Source: Bdellovibrio bacteriovorus | Lineage (GTDB): Bacteria; Bdellovibrionota; Bdellovibrionia; Bdellovibrionales; Bdellovibrionaceae | Length of the DNA: 64,000 nucleotides | Assembly (NCBI RefSeq): GCF_001592745.1 | Contig: NZ_LUKD01000006.1 | Span: 124,001-188,000 of the forward strand | Direction: 5' to 3' | Part shown: positions 15,187 through 28,742 of the stretch, piece after piece | Layout: the number at the start of each line of letters is the position of its first letter | Position numbering within the stretch: position 1 is the stretch's first letter | The notes under the pieces: model-generated | Told to the model about the DNA's origin: nothing | The model's input: the letters and a program-made list of their open reading frames with translations, nothing else | The model's database searches: none | Translations under genes and position numbers: made by a program

Positions 15187-15756
15187 ATGACAGACTATAG
15201 AGACGTTACTCCCGGTGCTCACTCCGACAATGCCAAAGAAGTTCTTCGTTACATCGTGAACTACCTTCGTCACCCGATTGAAAAAATCAAAAACCTGCCG
15301 GACTGGAGTTGGACTACGTTGATCGTGACCTTAGTGGTTCTATCAATGGCTTCCGGCGTGTTAACGGGATTAGTACCACCGAACTTTTTTCGTTTGATGG
15401 GCGGATTCATCATCTCTCCACTTGTGGGTGTCACGACGACTTTTATCGGCGCACTTTTTATTTATTATTACTTCCAGGTTTATGAAAAACGCACCTGCTC
15501 TTTGCGAAAGATCTTCACCCTGATTCTTTTTGCCAATATTCCTTTCTTTGTTTTTCAAGTGGGTTCAGAGATCATTCCCCCGATTACTTTAGTGGGTTTT
15601 GCTTTCACCGCTTTACTGATGGCCGTGGGCCTGACGGAAAATTTCCAGATGGACAAGCGTCGCGCACTTCGTCTGGTTACGATTCTTTTTGCCATTGTTT
15701 TCATTCTTTGGCTTTGGAATCGTATTGATATTTCGCGCTTGGAAAGACTCGGTTAA
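15187..15756 (+). CDS. Yip1-like multi-pass membrane protein
   Basis: 189 residues with five predicted membrane helices after a soluble N-terminus of about 45 residues. The first helix begins with WTTLIVTLVVLSMASG. The layout, with a helix-breaking PP loop after helix 1 and a cytoplasmic RxCSLRKIF segment, fits the Yip1 domain family. Bacterial members have no agreed function. It is probably co-transcribed with 13813 and 14477, and a 172-base gap separates it from the biosynthetic cluster at 15929. Confidence 0.6.
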   Translation: MTDYRDVTPGAHSDNAKEVLRYIVNYLRHPIEKIKNLPDWSWTTLIVTLVVLSMASGVLTGLVPPNFFRLMGGFIISPLVGVTTTFIGALFIYYYFQVYEKRTCSLRKIFTLILFANIPFFVFQVGSEIIPPITLVGFAFTALLMAVGLTENFQMDKRRALRLVTILFAIVFILWLWNRIDISRLERLG

Positions 15757-15928: not shown

Positions 15929-16669
15929 ATGAAAACCCTAGTTATCACTTCGGCCGTGACATTCGTGCCGGATAACTATGATGACTTAACGCTCGGCCTG
16001 GCCGACAACCCTTACGTACAAGGGCTCGTCGTTATTGATAACCGCAGTGCTGATATATACCTTAAAGCGTTTCTTTTGATGCTTTCTGGAGCGGGCCCCC
16101 TGATGGGATGGCATCTTCTTAAAAACAGCTTAGACAACTCCTTAGATCGAAAACAAAAGCGCTACGAAGCTTTGGGTAAAAAAGTGTGGGTCATTAAGGA
16201 CGTCAACTCTGACGAAACTATTCAGTTTCTTTCTTCGTTGGAACCCGATGTGATTTTAAATGCGCGAACTCGCTCTTTTTTCAAAAAGCGCCTTCTAGCG
16301 ATCCCAAAAATCGGCTGCATCAACATCCATCATGGGTTGCTTCCGCATCAACGGGGACTCATGTGCGATTTTTGGGCGCATCTTTTCGGCACCTCATTTG
16401 GTTTTTCTATTCACGAAATGACTTCGAAACTAGATGACGGCTCACTGCTTAAAGTGGTCGAAGTGCCTTCCGACAAAAAGAACTATCTGGAGTCATTAAA
16501 AAATGCCGCTCAACTAGAGACGTCAGCCGCGACGGAGGTGCTGCAGGAAATTGCACGCACCCGGAAAATTCAAGGCCTTGAGAACGCAAAAACAGACCAG
16601 ACCGTGTACCGATCTAACCCCGGTCTCATCGATTTTTACAAGCTACGCCTGCGAGGAATAAAGATATGA
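15929..16669 (+). CDS. Formyltransferase-like enzyme (GART/Fmt N-terminal fold)
   Basis: 246 residues. INIHHGLLPHQRG at 131-143 is the formyl-THF binding and catalytic signature (HxSLLPxxRG in Fmt), and a downstream KLDDG at 167-171 supplies the third catalytic residue. Asn132, His134 and Asp169/170 therefore correspond to the family triad. The usual C-terminal substrate domain of Fmt is absent, so this is not methionyl-tRNA formyltransferase; transfer of a formyl (or related one-carbon) group to a small amine is more likely. Its stop overlaps the next start as ATGA. It opens the four-gene cluster described in the findings. Confidence 0.75.
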   Translation: MKTLVITSAVTFVPDNYDDLTLGLADNPYVQGLVVIDNRSADIYLKAFLLMLSGAGPLMGWHLLKNSLDNSLDRKQKRYEALGKKVWVIKDVNSDETIQFLSSLEPDVILNARTRSFFKKRLLAIPKIGCINIHHGLLPHQRGLMCDFWAHLFGTSFGFSIHEMTSKLDDGSLLKVVEVPSDKKNYLESLKNAAQLETSAATEVLQEIARTRKIQGLENAKTDQTVYRSNPGLIDFYKLRLRGIKI

Positions 16670-19074
16670 AAACCATCATTGCTTTGCATGGAAACCCCGG
16701 TCATCCCGACGATTGGACTTTGCTTAAAGAAGCCGTTCAACCTTTGGGCTATACCCTTCACGCGGTGAAAGCCGACAGTGAGGAGTGGTTGAATCTTCTG
16801 ACTCAAGACTCGTCAAAGAAAATTCTTCTTGGCCACTCTTGGGGTGGCTACCGCATTTTAAAAACTTTGCCTGCTTACGAAAAGTATGTCGAGCAAGTGA
16901 TTTTAGTCACACCTTATTTAAAACCCGAACGCGAGATTTCACCGATAGCGGGCGCTTTGCTAAAGCTTCCTGTCTTGGGCGACGCTCTTATTAAATCGAA
17001 CTTTGCTAAATCCAAAGACACATTTCTAAAAGATCTTTTCCATCCATGGTCATTGGCGGACCACCCCTATTTACAAAAGATCACAGATCGTTTTGATTGG
17101 AATCTTTGGCAGAAAACGGCCTTCAATAAAATTAAAATGCAGGACAATCCGTGGACTGCCAAAGATGTCGTTAAAATACCTATCACCGTGGTCTATGGAA
17201 GTGACGACAAAATTACGGACGAGTCGATTCAAAATCAAATCGTCACTCAATATCCATCCCACAAAATCGTGAAAGCATCTAAGGCCGGCCATAGTCTTCT
17301 GTGGTCGCATATTCAAGACATCTTAAAAGTTTTGCAGGAGAAACCAGGAATGTCCCACCCTTCTGAAAAAATTGGTTACTACCCGGGTGCTGATGAACGT
17401 AATAACGTGATCAGCTACATGGAAAAACACTTACGCGAATTCCCTGACCGCGTCGCACTTTCGTGGGTTTCACGCGAAACCTTGGCAAAGTGGGATGGCA
17501 ATCCGCACACGCCTCTAAAGCATGATCAAATCACCTACAAACATTTCGCCGCAAGAATCAACTCTTTCGCGCGCGGACTCTTAGATATCGGTATTAAAAA
17601 AGGAGATCGTGTTATCATCTTCCTGCCGATGAGCCTTGACATGTACACGGCGATGTTTGCTGTACAACGTATTGGTGCTATTGCCGTGTTCTTGGATTCT
17701 TGGGCGCGCAGCCATCACTTAGGAGCTTCGGCAGAGTGCGTGGGCCCTAAAGCTATGATTAGTTTCAATATGGCTTTTGAACTTGTGAATCAGGTTCCTG
17801 AATTTCAATCCATGCCAATTCGAATTATGTATGGACCGGGCGACAAGTGCACTCACCGTTTCGAGGAACTTTTGAAAAAAGATCCGTCGCCGATCGCGGC
17901 CGTAGAAAGCGAGTTCACGGCATTGATCACATTTACGACGGGCTCAACGGGAAAACCCAAAGGAGCCAATCGCACGCATCGATTTCTGTCAGCGCAACAT
18001 CACGCGCTCTCGCATGTGATACCTTATACAGAAGTCGACAAAGACATGCCGGCCTTCCCGATCTTCAGTTTGAACAACCTGGCTTCTGGGGTGACCACGG
18101 TGTTACCAGCATTGGACTTAGCGGCCCCATCAGAAAGAGATTCGGCCATTTTGGCGTGTCAGATTTTAAATGAGAATATTAATTGCACGACGTTATCTCC
18201 AAGCATGCTTGTGGGACTGGCTCGGTACTGCAAAGAAAAGAATATCATCTTAAAAGGACTTCGTCGCGTCGTGACCGGCGGCGCTCCGATTTCTAAAGAC
18301 GATGTGAAAGCTTTCTATGACATCGCTCCTCAAACTGAGCTTTGGATTTTGTACGGCTCGACAGAAGCAGAACCTATGGCTCACATTGAAGGCCGGGATA
18401 TGCTGAAAGAAAGCAAAATCACCGATCCAGAGATTATCGAGGAAGGTGTGAACGTCGGCCACATCAGTGAAGACATCGATTTTAAATTCATCCGTATCAA
18501 AGACGGCCCCGTGGATTTGAAAGACTCTTCATGGCAGAAAATCGAAGTGCCGAATGGAGAAATCGGAGAGTTTATCTGTACGGGCGACCATGTCTGCCGC
18601 GACTACTATAACAACCCCGACGCCTTTAAAACCACAAAGATCTTGGATGAAAAGAACCGCGTATGGCATCGCACCGGGGATTTGGCCTATATTGATTCCG
18701 ACAAAAATCTTTGGATCGTGGGCCGTGTGAATAACGCCATCGAAAGAGCGGGAAAGTACTACTTCCCGGTGCGTTCCGAAGTTCTTTTGAAGCGTTTTGA
18801 TTTTACTTACCGCTGTGCCTTCTTAGGGGTTCCCGACTCCTCTCTGGGACAAGCGACTTACGCCGTCGTTGAATTAAAACAAGAAATCAACAGCCAAAGT
18901 TTTGACTTTGAGGCGGCCAAAAAAGAAATCCGCCGGGTTTTTGAAAAAAATAAAATTCCCGTGGATCAGATTAAGTTTGTTAAAAAGATCCCTATGGATC
19001 CTCGCCATCACTCGAAGGTGGAATACAAAGTTCTGCGCGATCAGTTGAATGATCCCGAGGTGATTATTGGGTAA
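16666..19074 (+). CDS. Alpha/beta-hydrolase fused to an AMP-forming acyl ligase
   Basis: 802 residues. Residues 1-225 are an alpha/beta hydrolase with nucleophile elbow GHSWGG (Ser58), acid YGSDD (Asp180/181) and KAGHS (His209), so a full Ser-Asp-His triad is visible. From about 230 an ANL-superfamily ligase follows: phosphate loop TTGSTGKPKG (424-433), YGSTE (563-567), GD at 671-672, hinge GRVNN (686-690), and C-terminal catalytic Lys in HSKVEYK (784 or 788). The ligase should activate a carboxylate as acyl-AMP, with CoA or another nucleophile as acceptor. The hydrolase may proofread or release the acyl product. An internal ATG at 17350 with its own ribosome site may also give a free ligase. 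Confidence 0.85.
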   Translation: MKTIIALHGNPGHPDDWTLLKEAVQPLGYTLHAVKADSEEWLNLLTQDSSKKILLGHSWGGYRILKTLPAYEKYVEQVILVTPYLKPEREISPIAGALLKLPVLGDALIKSNFAKSKDTFLKDLFHPWSLADHPYLQKITDRFDWNLWQKTAFNKIKMQDNPWTAKDVVKIPITVVYGSDDKITDESIQNQIVTQYPSHKIVKASKAGHSLLWSHIQDILKVLQEKPGMSHPSEKIGYYPGADERNNVISYMEKHLREFPDRVALSWVSRETLAKWDGNPHTPLKHDQITYKHFAARINSFARGLLDIGIKKGDRVIIFLPMSLDMYTAMFAVQRIGAIAVFLDSWARSHHLGASAECVGPKAMISFNMAFELVNQVPEFQSMPIRIMYGPGDKCTHRFEELLKKDPSPIAAVESEFTALITFTTGSTGKPKGANRTHRFLSAQHHALSHVIPYTEVDKDMPAFPIFSLNNLASGVTTVLPALDLAAPSERDSAILACQILNENINCTTLSPSMLVGLARYCKEKNIILKGLRRVVTGGAPISKDDVKAFYDIAPQTELWILYGSTEAEPMAHIEGRDMLKESKITDPEIIEEGVNVGHISEDIDFKFIRIKDGPVDLKDSSWQKIEVPNGEIGEFICTGDHVCRDYYNNPDAFKTTKILDEKNRVWHRTGDLAYIDSDKNLWIVGRVNNAIERAGKYYFPVRSEVLLKRFDFTYRCAFLGVPDSSLGQATYAVVELKQEINSQSFDFEAAKKEIRRVFEKNKIPVDQIKFVKKIPMDPRHHSKVEYKVLRDQLNDPEVIIG

Positions 19075-19930
19075 TTGGTGGATATTAATTAAAGAAAGAT
19101 TCAGCCCCGCTTCTTATGTGCCCATGATATTTCTTTTTTCATGGGCCAACGGGCTTTTCTTTTCTTCCACTTTAGGGTTGGAATGGAATTGGGGACGCTT
19201 TGCTTGCGTCTTCCTTTTGATGCTGTCGTTCTTTTTTCGCATGCGTCTTTTTGATGAGATCAAAGACTATGAAGTGGATTTGAAAGTCAATCCCACCCGT
19301 CCTTTAGCGCGCGGAATTTTGACGGTTCGACAAGTCAAGGTGGCCCTTCTTTTCCTCATTATTTTCGAGATTGGTCTTGCCAGCAATCTAGGCGTTTATT
19401 CTCTTCTGATTCACGCAGCGGCCATCGGCTACAGTCTTTTGATGTATGAGGAGTTTTTTATCGGCGACTCCTTGCGGCCGCATTTAACGACCTACGCGGT
19501 TACTCACACCTTTGTGAGCGTTCTCTTAGGTCTTTCTAGCGGTGTCGCCATGACAGGTGTCAATCCTCAAGAAATCACATTGCCGCTTTTGATATTTATT
19601 TTTATGAACTGGGCCTTCTTCAATCTTTTTGAGTTCGCTCGAAAAACGTTCGCGAGCTCCGAAGAAAGACCGCATGTGCCTTCTTATTCCAATATTTTTA
19701 CGGACAAAGGAGCCTTAGCCCTTTCTTTGAGCCAAGCAATCCTGGGAGTGGGGGTCGCTTACTACCTTCAGCCCCACTGGATTTGGCTGGTTTCTTTGTC
19801 AGCTTATGTCGTTCTAAGTTCGATTTATATTATTAAAAAAACCGCCCCTGCCGCGCAGTTCTTCCGTGCGATTTCCGGGGTCTATTTGCTGCTTCACTAT
19901 GCTCTAGTGATCTATATGTGGAGATCCTAA
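19067..19930 (+). CDS. UbiA-family prenyltransferase
   Basis: 287 residues from TTG 19067. The previous gene overlaps it by eight bases, and GAGGTG lies four to nine bases upstream. About eight or nine membrane helices are predicted. The first Asp-rich motif is present as DEIKDYEVD at 63-71, followed by NPTRPLARG, the standard continuation in UbiA enzymes. It would bind an isoprenoid diphosphate through Mg2+. The second Asp motif is degenerate (FEFARKTF), so the acceptor or chemistry may differ from quinone-making members. It should sit in the inner membrane and act on the product of its neighbours. Confidence 0.8.
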   Translation: MGNWWILIKERFSPASYVPMIFLFSWANGLFFSSTLGLEWNWGRFACVFLLMLSFFFRMRLFDEIKDYEVDLKVNPTRPLARGILTVRQVKVALLFLIIFEIGLASNLGVYSLLIHAAAIGYSLLMYEEFFIGDSLRPHLTTYAVTHTFVSVLLGLSSGVAMTGVNPQEITLPLLIFIFMNWAFFNLFEFARKTFASSEERPHVPSYSNIFTDKGALALSLSQAILGVGVAYYLQPHWIWLVSLSAYVVLSSIYIIKKTAPAAQFFRAISGVYLLLHYALVIYMWRS

Positions 19931-19932
19931 CT

Positions 19933-22611
19933 ATGCTTGTAACTCCAAAATCAACACTGTTCTTTGCTAAAAACGAAGCCGGAGGAAAAGGCTTTAATCT
20001 TTACCTCATGTCGCAAGCAGGACTTCCCGTTCCCGAATGGGTCGTGTTCGGTAAAAGATTCTTCCAAGAGTTTCTGGCGTCGCCTTCGGTGAAAACAAAT
20101 TTATCGCTGATTATGCAACGTCTTTCGGCTAAGGAACTCACGCCTCTTCAAGCGGAGGCGGAAGTTCGAGCTCTCTTTGAAAAAACCGATCTCTCCAAAA
20201 ATCTTTCAGAATCCTTGGACAAAGCATTGAAGGATTTGGGCGCAAACAATGTTTTTTCAGTGCGTTCGTCAGCCGCCGACGAAGACAGTCTTTCGCATTC
20301 TTTCGCGGGTCAGCTTTCAAGCTATCTTTATGTCTCAGGCAAAGAAGATATTCTTAAATACATTCGTCAATGCTGGATCTCCGCTTTTTCCGAGCGAAGC
20401 TTGGTCTATCGTTTGGAAAATGGCATCGACCTTCAGAAGATTTCTGTGTCGGTGGTTTTACAGCGCATGATTGATCCAGATAAATCCGGTGTTCTTTTCA
20501 CTTGTGATCCGGTCGAAAAGAAAATCGATCGCTATGTCGTTTCTTCCGTCTATGGCGTTGGTGAAGGACTGGTGTCAGGAACTTTGGATGCAGATTCTTT
20601 CTGGCTTGAAGCGCACAGCGGAAAGCTTTTAAAAGAAGAAGTCGTCGAGAAAAAAGAGATGATGAAGAAATCTTCTTCAGGTCACTGCTCGACTCTGCCT
20701 GTCCCAAGCAATCTTGTAAACACGGCCTCTTTGACCCAGGAAGAGCTTTCAAAGCTCTATCGTCTCGGGCACAAAATTCAAGAGCAGTATCATCGTCCGC
20801 AAGATATTGAATGGGCGATTGAAGGCGGTAAGATCTATATTTTACAAACTCGTCCCGTAACGACATTGCAGGCCGACTTGATTGGTTATCCGAATCTTTG
20901 GGACAATTCAAACATCATTGAATCCTATGGAGGTTTGACCTCACCTTTGAGTTTTAGTTTCGCCCTTAGAAACTATAAAGCCGTGTATGTGCAGTTCTGT
21001 GAAGTTTTAGGTGTTCCGAATGAGATCATTAAAGACATGGACTCTTACTTAGGATACATGCTGGGATCTTTGAATGGCCGTGTGTACTACAATCTTTTCA
21101 ATTGGTACAAACTTGTCGGCGTTCTTCCGGGCTTTAAACAGAATCGCGAGTTCATGGAAACCATGATGGGAGTTTCTGAGGCACTCAGCGAAGAAATCGC
21201 GGATCGTATCAAACCTCACCCTTCGTGGGACACGTTCAGCGGTCGTATCCGTAAAGCCATCACCGGATTTAATTTTATTAAATATCATTTCACTATTCAA
21301 AGCACCGTGGATGACTTTTTGGCGACTTTCCATCGCGACTACGACAAGTACCGAAGTCTGCCGTTAAAGCGGATGCGGGGCGATCAACTGATCCGCATTT
21401 ACATGGAGCTTGAGCGAAACATGCTGGGCCGCTGGAAGGCTCCCATCATCAATGACTTCTTGTGCATGGTTCACTTCGGCCTTTTGCGTAAGCTGACAAC
21501 CACGTGGCTCAAAGATTTGGATTCGACCATCCAAAATGACCTTCTTGCGGGTGAAGGGGGACTGGAAAGTGCCGAGCCGACAAAGGCTTTACTGCGCTTA
21601 GCAAATAAAGCCGCCCAAAATCCAGACTTACGCAAACTGATCGAGACCATCGATCCCGCCGAGGGTCTGGAGGCTTTAAATCAATCACCTTACCAAGAAT
21701 TCTATAAGTCCGTCTTAGACTATCTCGACAAGTACGGATTCCGCTGTATGAGTGAGATGAAACTTGAGGAGATCGATCTTCTCACAGATCCAAGTTACCT
21801 CTTTGTCTGTTTGAAAAACTATTTGAAGTCAGGTCAGACGGAGGTTCACGATGACTCTCACGAAAAGTCTTTGCGAACTCAAGCCGAAGCCAAAGTGGCT
21901 TCGCATCTGACTGGCTTTAAAAAGAAATTTTATTTCTGGGTCCTTAAACACGCCCGTAAAGCCGTGAAGAACCGCGAAAACACGCGTTTTGCGCGCACAC
22001 GTATTTACGGTATTGCCCGCACGATCTTCCAAACTATTGGTGAAGATTTGGCGACAATGAACGCGCTTGAGCAACCCCGCGATATCTTCTGGCTGACCAT
22101 CGAAGAAGTCTTTGGGATTTACAACGGCACTCTGCCCTCCTACAACCTGAAGGGCATTATCGAGCTACGCAAAAAAGATTATGGTCAATTCGCTGAAGAA
22201 ACGGACCCGCGCGTGATGACTCGAGGAGCGGTCTATTGGGACAACACGTTTATTAAAGAAGAGATTCCTCAGGTGGCTGAATCTGGCGACTATGACTTAA
22301 AAGGTCTGCCGTGCTGCCCAGGAGTTCTTGAAGGTGTCGTCAAGGTTATCTTAAATCCAAGTGATAACTTGGAACTGAATGGCGAGATTCTGGTGACAGC
22401 TCGTACCGATCCAGGGTGGGTCCCTCTTTATCCAGCGATCTCAGGGCTTTTGGTAGAGCGCGGAAGCTTGCTTTCTCACTCGGCCATTGTTGCCAGAGAG
22501 ATGGGAATCCCTGCGATCGTCAGCATCCCAGGATTAACAAAACGAATTAAATCCGGCATGCGCGTTCGCATTGATGCCAAGGCAGGTACAATTAAAATCT
22601 TAGACGAATAA
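19933..22611 (+). CDS. Dikinase of rifampicin-phosphotransferase architecture
   Basis: 892 residues from ATG 19933, two bases after the UbiA stop, with GGAG upstream. The N-terminal ATP-grasp domain has EAGGKG (15-20), VRSSAADEDSLSHSFAGQ (110-127) and a closing QTRPVT (about 315). A ~450-residue middle domain follows that I cannot match to a substrate. The C-terminal ~100 residues are a swivelling phosphohistidine domain, with SHSAIVAREMGIPAIV placing His849 44 residues from the end. PEP synthase has a further C-terminal TIM barrel after this domain, which is missing here. The order ATP domain, substrate domain, His domain is that of Listeria RPH. The likely reaction is ATP-driven phosphorylation of a small molecule; the substrate is unknown. 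Confidence 0.8.
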   Translation: MLVTPKSTLFFAKNEAGGKGFNLYLMSQAGLPVPEWVVFGKRFFQEFLASPSVKTNLSLIMQRLSAKELTPLQAEAEVRALFEKTDLSKNLSESLDKALKDLGANNVFSVRSSAADEDSLSHSFAGQLSSYLYVSGKEDILKYIRQCWISAFSERSLVYRLENGIDLQKISVSVVLQRMIDPDKSGVLFTCDPVEKKIDRYVVSSVYGVGEGLVSGTLDADSFWLEAHSGKLLKEEVVEKKEMMKKSSSGHCSTLPVPSNLVNTASLTQEELSKLYRLGHKIQEQYHRPQDIEWAIEGGKIYILQTRPVTTLQADLIGYPNLWDNSNIIESYGGLTSPLSFSFALRNYKAVYVQFCEVLGVPNEIIKDMDSYLGYMLGSLNGRVYYNLFNWYKLVGVLPGFKQNREFMETMMGVSEALSEEIADRIKPHPSWDTFSGRIRKAITGFNFIKYHFTIQSTVDDFLATFHRDYDKYRSLPLKRMRGDQLIRIYMELERNMLGRWKAPIINDFLCMVHFGLLRKLTTTWLKDLDSTIQNDLLAGEGGLESAEPTKALLRLANKAAQNPDLRKLIETIDPAEGLEALNQSPYQEFYKSVLDYLDKYGFRCMSEMKLEEIDLLTDPSYLFVCLKNYLKSGQTEVHDDSHEKSLRTQAEAKVASHLTGFKKKFYFWVLKHARKAVKNRENTRFARTRIYGIARTIFQTIGEDLATMNALEQPRDIFWLTIEEVFGIYNGTLPSYNLKGIIELRKKDYGQFAEETDPRVMTRGAVYWDNTFIKEEIPQVAESGDYDLKGLPCCPGVLEGVVKVILNPSDNLELNGEILVTARTDPGWVPLYPAISGLLVERGSLLSHSAIVAREMGIPAIVSIPGLTKRIKSGMRVRIDAKAGTIKILDE

Positions 22612-27470: not shown

Positions 27471-28742
27471 TTACAGAGTCAGTTCTTCAAACCAAGTTTT
27501 CAACTCGGTCACGCCCGGCCCTAATAAAACCCCGGATGCGGCGTTTAAATCAAGCTCTTCGCGAATATATTCATTCACCGAGTCGACCGTCACCGCTTTG
27601 ATTTCCTCTATCACGGATTCCACAGAACGGAAGCTGCCAAAAACGATCTCGTTGACCGCTAAAGACGTCATACGATTTTCGATATCATCAGAACTTAATA
27701 AAATGCTGCCAATAACTTGAGTCTTAAACATCTCCACATCGGCCTTAGAGACACCTTGCTTACGAATCTTCTGCAGTTCTTTAGAAATAAGATCGCCCAC
27801 TTTTTTGACATTCTTAGTTTCCGTTCCCGCATAAATAGTTAGCATCCCGGAATCAATGTGGGTGTTGAGGCTCGAATGAATTGTGTAAACCAGGCCTCTT
27901 TTTTCACGAACACTTTGATAAAGTTTGGAGGTCATGCCCCCACCCAAAAGGGTGTTCGCGATCACGGCTTCGAAACGACGTTTATCCTTGAAGCTTGCTG
28001 TCGGAAAGCCCATCAGCATGTGCACTTGTTCGGCTTGCTTTTCAACGACGTGACGACGTTTTAACCAGCGAGGGAACTTACGAGAGTTTTTAAGCACCGA
28101 CTGCTTTTTCTTTCCCAAACGCTTTTCAATACCAGCCATCAATTCGTCATGGTCCAAGCAACCGGCCGCACTGACGATGATGTTTTTTCCAGTGTAGTTT
28201 TTCTTGTAATAATCCATCACCTGATTCTGTTTCATCGTGGCGATAGACTTTGGAGTTCCCAAGATAGGACGAGCGAGCGGATTTTTTCCGTACACCTGCT
28301 CATAGAAGACATCATAAATAATTTCTTCGTGGCTATCTTCGGACATTGCGATCTCTTGCAAGATCACACCCTTTTCAAGGTCGAATTCTTTCTTGTTCAA
28401 ATGCATGTTGGATACTAGATCCGCCAAAACATCCAAGGCCTTTTCCCAGTGATCTTTTAAAACCAAAGCGTGGTAACACGTATATTCACGCGTGGTGTAG
28501 GCATTTAAATCCCCACCCAAGGCTTCTAAAGATTTTGCGATTTGATAGGCAGACCGAGTTTTAGTCCCCTTAAACACCAAGTGTTCAAGAAGATGCGAGA
28601 TGCCCGCATTCTCTGGCGACTCATCTCGAGTGCCGGTCAAAACCCAGATACTGATAGAAACGGCACGGGACCCTGGATGAAGTTCGCTCACCACTCGGAT
28701 CCCGTTAGAAAGTTCAGATTTTTTGAACTTAGTATTTGTCAT
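27471..28742 (-). CDS. M16 family zinc metallopeptidase
   Basis: 423 residues. The inverted zinc motif HxxEH is present as HLLEH at 50-54, with the second-ligand region LEKGVILQEIAMSED downstream and the substrate-binding R/Y segment (GGGMTSKLYQSVREKRGLVY) in the C-terminal half. The length fits processing-peptidase-like bacterial M16B proteins. A homologue occupies the same place between pnp and dut in Bacillus (mlpA). No signal peptide is seen, so it acts in the cytoplasm, probably on peptides or misfolded short proteins. Confidence 0.92.
   Translation of the reverse strand: MTNTKFKKSELSNGIRVVSELHPGSRAVSISIWVLTGTRDESPENAGISHLLEHLVFKGTKTRSAYQIAKSLEALGGDLNAYTTREYTCYHALVLKDHWEKALDVLADLVSNMHLNKKEFDLEKGVILQEIAMSEDSHEEIIYDVFYEQVYGKNPLARPILGTPKSIATMKQNQVMDYYKKNYTGKNIIVSAAGCLDHDELMAGIEKRLGKKKQSVLKNSRKFPRWLKRRHVVEKQAEQVHMLMGFPTASFKDKRRFEAVIANTLLGGGMTSKLYQSVREKRGLVYTIHSSLNTHIDSGMLTIYAGTETKNVKKVGDLISKELQKIRKQGVSKADVEMFKTQVIGSILLSSDDIENRMTSLAVNEIVFGSFRSVESVIEEIKAVTVDSVNEYIREELDLNAASGVLLGPGVTELKTWFEELTL

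Follow-up and report, generated by a model that had tools for sequence, protein, structure and literature searches.

The locus described here raises the question of what four enzymes of disparate families make together: a formyltransferase-like protein (FT), an α/β-hydrolase fused to an AMP-forming ligase (LIG), a UbiA-superfamily membrane protein (UBI) and a dikinase of the RPH/phosphoenolpyruvate-synthase type (RPH). Their genes (Table 1) lie in a 64,000-nucleotide window of the Bdellovibrio bacteriovorus genome (assembly GCF_001592745.1, contig NZ_LUKD01000006.1, positions 124,001 to 188,000), and all positions below refer to this window unless a contig is named. The window is part of contig C6 of a 3.76-Mb genome, in which the four genes occupy C6:139929-146611. 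By computation, the gene order is conserved, the catalytic motifs are intact, and the genes are co-inherited with a further set, here called module 2. On this basis we consider that the four genes form a translationally coupled cassette, and that this cassette is probably the later of two parts of a pathway for a specialised membrane lipid that would be exported to the outer membrane. The context supports a lipid pathway as such well: the cassette co-occurs genome-wide with genes for a lipid kinase, an acyl-acyl carrier protein (ACP) reductase (AAR)-like protein, a DUF3419 protein, a LolA-like protein and an ABC exporter, and in most genomes lies next to them.

Gene layout and conservation of the cassette

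The FT and fusion genes overlap as ATGA at 16666-16669, the fusion and UBI genes overlap by eight bases (19067-19074), and two bases separate the end of the UBI gene (19930) from the ATG of the dikinase gene (19933). This layout of four genes on a single strand is exact to the base as described in an earlier note made on the DNA alone. The list of open reading frames also contains an earlier GTG start for the dikinase at 19918; ATG 19933 is most likely the true start. A scan of the locus for promoters and terminators was uninformative, with promoter signals no higher than chance.

Table 1. Features of the cassette and its surroundings, in window coordinates
Feature	Position	Strand	Basis or remark
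FT, formyltransferase-like, 246 aa, N-terminal catalytic domain only	15929-16669	+	Pfam PF00551, 1.5e-12
Hydrolase-ligase fusion, 802 aa	16666-19074	+	Abhydrolase + AMP-binding
α/β-hydrolase domain of fusion, residues ~1-228, Ser-Asp-His triad	16666-17349	+	Pfam PF12146/PF00561
AMP-forming ligase (LIG) domain of fusion, OleC-like	17350-19074	+	NCBIfam scores, adenylation motifs
UBI, UbiA-superfamily membrane protein, 287 aa, TTG start	19067-19930	+	Pfam PF01040, 5.3e-12
RPH, RPH/PEP-synthase-type dikinase, 892 aa, ATG start	19933-22611	+	PPDK_N 4.7e-77, PEP-utilizers 1.7e-22
Segment of ~11 kb, present here and absent at the corresponding site of five related genomes	15757 to ~27000		Comparison with L109-L113; right boundary approximate
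Yip1 gene, left flank	15187-15756
M16 peptidase gene, right flank	27471-28742

The genes are also kept together in relatives, so that this check, set by the earlier note, comes out in favour of its reading. The fused ligase is present in 18 of 100 related genomes and in 13 of the 23 other genomes of the same genus; wherever the contig allows, it is bordered by the other three genes in unchanged order. A scan by ligase alignment, with one genome per species, yielded 42 loci, of which 41 are close relatives. The order FT-(hydrolase)-LIG-UBI-RPH on one strand is found in 24 of these loci, which span Bdellovibrionota, Oligoflexia, Akkermansiaceae (Verrucomicrobia), Planctomycetota, a Gammaproteobacterium and others; many of the remaining loci are truncated by contig ends, and two (L056 and L064) have the order LIG-UBI-RPH-FT. 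The hydrolase is a gene of its own in five loci (L035, L043, L047, L054 and L063), and the system therefore really comprises five activities. Pairwise identities of FT, LIG, UBI and RPH are correlated (Spearman 0.66-0.85), those of the hydrolase less so (0.34-0.48). It is clear that the four-gene arrangement is more than chance. In two pairs of related metagenome-assembled genomes (MAGs; L036/L037 and L034/L041) further conserved neighbours recur beside the cassette.

A second module co-inherited with the cassette

At about 18 loci the cassette is adjoined by a further block of genes, often divergently transcribed. This module 2 comprises a DAGK/YegS-type lipid kinase, a short-chain dehydrogenase/reductase (SDR) of the NAD_binding_4 type, an AAR-like protein of about 690 residues, and a DUF3419 protein, DUF3419 being the label of an algal betaine-lipid synthase homologue (PMC10685587). 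By both sequence and fold, the C-terminal half of the AAR-like protein is a reductase of the acyl-ACP-reductase/PigE-like kind, with PigE as the closest NCBIfam model; the N-terminal half of about 310 residues has no assigned family. Stand-alone copies of this N-terminal domain (for example residues 1-310 of L050:4295-6373, minus strand) occur elsewhere in genomes G125, G139, G205 and G245. In Bdellovibrio, module 2 additionally contains a LolA-like protein, an ABC ATPase with an FtsX/MacB permease (LolCDE/MacB-like), and a predicted outer-membrane protein.

A BLAST search found no module-2 genes within the 64-kb window. In the genome to which the window belongs, the two halves are both kept, on different contigs, with module 2 at about C1:704400-713630; in genome G006 they are neighbours. 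The four genes form a unit, as was proposed from the DNA alone, and with module 2 the pathway is larger than this unit.

The association of the two halves is strong. Among 100 genomes covering most of the order, the dikinase and the AAR-like gene occur together in 29, the dikinase alone in one and the AAR-like gene alone in none, with 70 lacking both (p = 2e-24); the corresponding figures for the dikinase and DUF3419 are 28, 2, 3 and 67, so that DUF3419 (PF11899) exceeds its cut-off in nearly the same genomes as the cassette. In 241 genomes of the phylum, 69 have both dikinase and AAR-like gene and 161 have neither, giving 69 of the 80 genomes that have either (p = 7.5e-47, both p values being inflated by shared ancestry). 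The two genes are no more than 20 kb apart in 52 of the 69. The pattern extends over 33-34 genera and is also borne out by recurrent absence inside a single genus. In the genus of the window, 8 of 24 genomes lack the dikinase. DUF3419 genes without the cassette core were observed in G054, G069 and G077; the one in G077 fits the family profile far better and could be a regular BtaA.

Variant cassettes

Four genomes (G013, G020, G071 and G083) appear to be cassette-free yet have module 2. At the corresponding place they carry a variant, type-B cassette, composed of a ligase of about 470-550 residues (25-27% identity), a UbiA-like protein where recovered (29-31%), an RPH (41-44%), and a GNAT-like protein whose identity Pfam confirms for G013 and G020. 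FT and hydrolase were not seen in the type-B cassettes of these four genomes. From this content, the ligase, the UbiA-like protein and the dikinase look like the core of the cassette, and FT or GNAT like an exchangeable part; it is plausible that both are amine modifiers. The type-B cassettes observed beside module 2 are in L088, L089/L084, L090 and L094, and a cytochrome P450 occurs in L090 (G020).

Loci of the Omnitrophota type differ in their front end. Here, genes for HMG-CoA reductase, DUF3419 and a polytopic membrane protein stand ahead of the core, with HMG-CoA reductase and the polytopic protein in the place taken elsewhere by AAR/SDR and DAGK. In L049, L056, L057, L059, L064 and L065, HMG-CoA reductase is encoded close to DUF3419, to core genes or to both. 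In genomes of this type a match to DXR is found in nine of ten and a mevalonate kinase above cut-off in one of ten, and for this reason the HMG-CoA reductase may serve the present pathway rather than isoprenoid supply, within the limits set by the incompleteness of these MAGs. Isoprenoid supply was considered as its role and is disfavoured, the genomes being mostly of the methylerythritol phosphate (MEP) type. A profile search of the PDB with c10, the membrane protein of these loci, gave no match, and its reading as a dolichol/phytol-kinase-like protein consequently comes from inspection only. Single loci add genes for a CDP-alcohol phosphatidyltransferase, a CarS-like protein, a cytidylyltransferase (CTP-transferase) and an acyl-ACP--phospholipid acyltransferase.

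Enzyme families and catalytic residues

The enzyme families named in the earlier note, including a formyltransferase without the C-terminal domain of Fmt, are borne out by Pfam and NCBIfam. FT consists of Formyl_trans_N alone, and its nearest solved structures are Fmt, ArnA and sugar N-formyltransferases. It shares with these enzymes the N-terminal domain and the Asn-His-Asp catalytic set of the PurN/Fmt fold (N132, H134 and D169, invariant in 24 sequences). It differs from sugar N-formyltransferases and Fmt in that the C-terminal domain is absent, the similarity is only about 50 bits, and the gene context is one of lipids rather than of sugars or tRNA.

The hydrolase has a triad, S58, D181 and H209, conserved across 25 sequences, and in all 25 aligned hydrolases the nucleophile is a serine in the motif G/A-x-S-x-G. 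The adenylation motifs of the ligase are invariant in relatives, and the lysine of PMDPRHHSK is kept. The nearest group of the ligase is PRK09274/OleC, and it falls below the curated cut-offs of both: 366 bits against 478 for PRK09274, and 214 and 211 bits against 900 and 850 for the two models of OleC (olefin β-lactone synthetase). A hydrolase fused to an OleC-like ligase recalls the OleB-OleC fusion of the long-chain olefin/β-lactone pathway, here with accessory enzymes, and the SDR of module 2 has weak similarity to OleD. OleB has an aspartate nucleophile. It resembles haloalkane dehalogenases (reference in PMC7158056). The serine of the present hydrolase (G-x-S-x-G) and the low OleC scores led us to reject an Ole pathway, which we regard as very improbable; moreover FT, UBI and RPH, three partners unrelated to it, have no role there, and no OleA-like thiolase was recognised among the recurring neighbours, the genome not having been searched for OleA.

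The product of 19067-19930 clearly has a predicted UbiA fold. It is above the Pfam cut-off for PF01040, and its AlphaFold model (pLDDT 92.6) is closest to digeranylgeranylglyceryl phosphate (DGGGP) synthase (7bpu/6m31) and to other UbiA members including ApUbiA, with TM scores of 0.63-0.67 and 15% identity. UbiA prenyltransferases have two Asp-rich Mg-diphosphate motifs. The first metal motif, DxxxDxxxD, shared with DGGGP synthase and other UbiA enzymes, is present as D63-x3-D67-x3-D71, invariant in 30 sequences; in place of the second Asp motif is E189-x2-RK-x5-EE, equally invariant, which makes ordinary prenyl-diphosphate chemistry, and hence prenyl transfer, uncertain.

DGGGP synthase is both the closest fold and the best profile match, and this raises the possibility of an archaeal-like ether or prenyl-lipid synthesis, in which UBI would prenylate a glycerol phosphate backbone in the manner of DGGGP synthase. 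L052, in which a CDP-alcohol transferase and a CarS-like domain form one fusion beside an HMG-CoA reductase gene, fits the same idea. The low identity and the replaced motif argue against it, as does the fact that no GGGP synthase was noticed and that the genes at most loci are for a fatty-acyl reductase, not for isoprenoids; we therefore think it improbable. Two other candidates were rejected: the Lipocone/YfiM-UbiA operon (PMC12419801), whose gene set differs, and anti-phage defence, for which PADLOC gave no match.

The dikinase combines an ATP-grasp PPDK_N domain with a phospho-His domain, in which the catalytic H849 lies in the conserved sequence SH849SAIVARE. These features, PPDK_N, PEP-utilizers and a catalytic histidine, are shared with PigC/RedH and Rph. 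The dikinase nevertheless belongs to a family of its own, NCBIfam PRK06241.2-2 (1326 bits), which is named only ‘phosphoenolpyruvate synthase’. It scores 379/388 bits against PigC/RedH (cut-offs 1300/1350) and 367 bits against the rifamycin phosphotransferase model RIF_Ptrans (cut-off 999), and being equally similar to prodigiosin ligases and rifamycin phosphotransferases it may condense rather than phosphorylate its substrates.

The main alternative to a membrane lipid draws on these scores. The product could be a secreted or cell-associated natural product, a lipid-tailed pigment or signal, whose halves would be joined by a PigC-like RPH, whose aldehyde would come from the AAR/PigE-like protein, and which the ABC exporter would secrete. 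The closeness of the AAR-like reductase domain to PigE and the patchy presence within the genus are both consistent with this. On the other hand, the PigC/RedH scores are far under their cut-offs and almost equalled by that of the rifamycin phosphotransferase, no pyrrole genes were seen, and the LolA-like, lipid kinase and CDP-alcohol genes favour a membrane lipid. We judge a natural product to be rather unlikely.

A proposed pathway

For the membrane lipid that we favour, the individual steps are suggested by what is known of each family, and their order is a guess. In module 2, the AAR-like protein would reduce acyl-ACP to a fatty aldehyde and the SDR would reduce the aldehyde to an alcohol, and the DAG-kinase-type enzyme would phosphorylate a lipid alcohol. 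The DUF3419 protein, if it acts in the manner of BtaA, would transfer an aminocarboxypropyl group, with S-adenosylmethionine as the donor, so that the resulting lipid would carry both an amine and a carboxylate. FT could then cap the amine with formyl, or the GNAT of the variant cassette could do so with an acyl group; LIG would adenylate a carboxylate, with the hydrolase as an esterase or proof-reading partner. The UbiA-like protein would transfer a group within the membrane, and the dikinase would use ATP to phosphorylate or condense. Finally, the LolA-like protein and the LolCDE/MacB-like ABC transporter would carry the product to the outer membrane.

The earlier note had suggested that the genes make or modify a lipid, and the co-occurrence and adjacency with lipid genes support this; its stepwise scheme, in which an acid is activated, linked, prenylated, phosphorylated and formylated, is unproven. 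The proposed pathway has in common with BtaA-BtaB betaine/homoserine lipid synthesis a lipid context and a DUF3419 protein, here co-inherited with the cassette. It differs in having a formyl- or GNAT-transferase, a ligase, a UbiA-like protein and a dikinase, and no BtaB-type methyltransferase was recognised among the recurring neighbours, the genomes not having been searched for BtaB.

Several observations weigh against a two-part lipid pathway of this kind. The DUF3419 proteins of Bdellovibrio form a divergent branch, and for this reason aminocarboxypropyl transfer is only assumed. UBI has the altered second motif noted above. No module 2 is recognisable in the neighbourhood of loci L032 and L033, and among the 241 genomes seven are RPH-positive without the AAR-like gene and four have the reverse; shared ancestry moreover tempers the p values.

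Location of the cassette in its own genome

In five genomes of the same genus (L109-L113), the M16 peptidase gene follows Yip1 after 0.5 to 5 kb, and none of the intervening window genes tested is found there. The site lacks the cassette in these relatives, and we conclude that a relocated segment of about 11 kb holds the cassette here. Besides the cassette, the segment contains genes for a small protein, an SDR, a LysR regulator, an Exo_endo_phos protein and a 284-residue protein without an assigned family. No convincing repeats were found at its ends. The old place of the cassette in this genome keeps an MFS gene that resembles one inside the variant cassette of G020. A FadD11-like acyl ligase gene beside a Ser/Thr kinase-like gene was observed at the ancestral cassette site (L079:1678-3459, on G000:C1, and L027:6796-8577), and in some same-genus genomes this ligase gene overlaps FT by four bases.

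Implications

The earlier note knew of no named pathway with this set of enzymes, and we also found none that matches in the literature searched. In that literature, which excludes most subscription titles, there was no publication on this gene combination, on the nearby HD100 locus tags, or on Bdellovibrio lipids touching the cluster. All the enzyme families are known; their combination is not known to match any pathway, and there is a real chance that the product belongs to a new class of lipid. More tentatively, and with less likelihood than the pathway itself, this could be a new class of outer-membrane lipid with an aminocarboxypropyl-derived head group, N-formylated or N-acylated, made across many phyla by interchangeable cassettes (FT or GNAT) and front ends (acyl-ACP reductase with DAG kinase, or an HMG-CoA-reductase-like protein with a polytopic membrane protein).

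If the proposal is right, B. bacteriovorus, a cultured and genetically tractable predator, carries a whole lipid pathway whose genes the annotation lists piecemeal as ‘ligase’, ‘UbiA’ and ‘PEP synthase’. About a third of the genomes in the genus would be without the pathway, so that a comparison of strains, together with deletions, would reveal the lipid and its role in predation. Occurrence of the pathway genes in Omnitrophota, Planctomycetota, Verrucomicrobia and others would tie this lipid to environmental lipids that are as yet unassigned.

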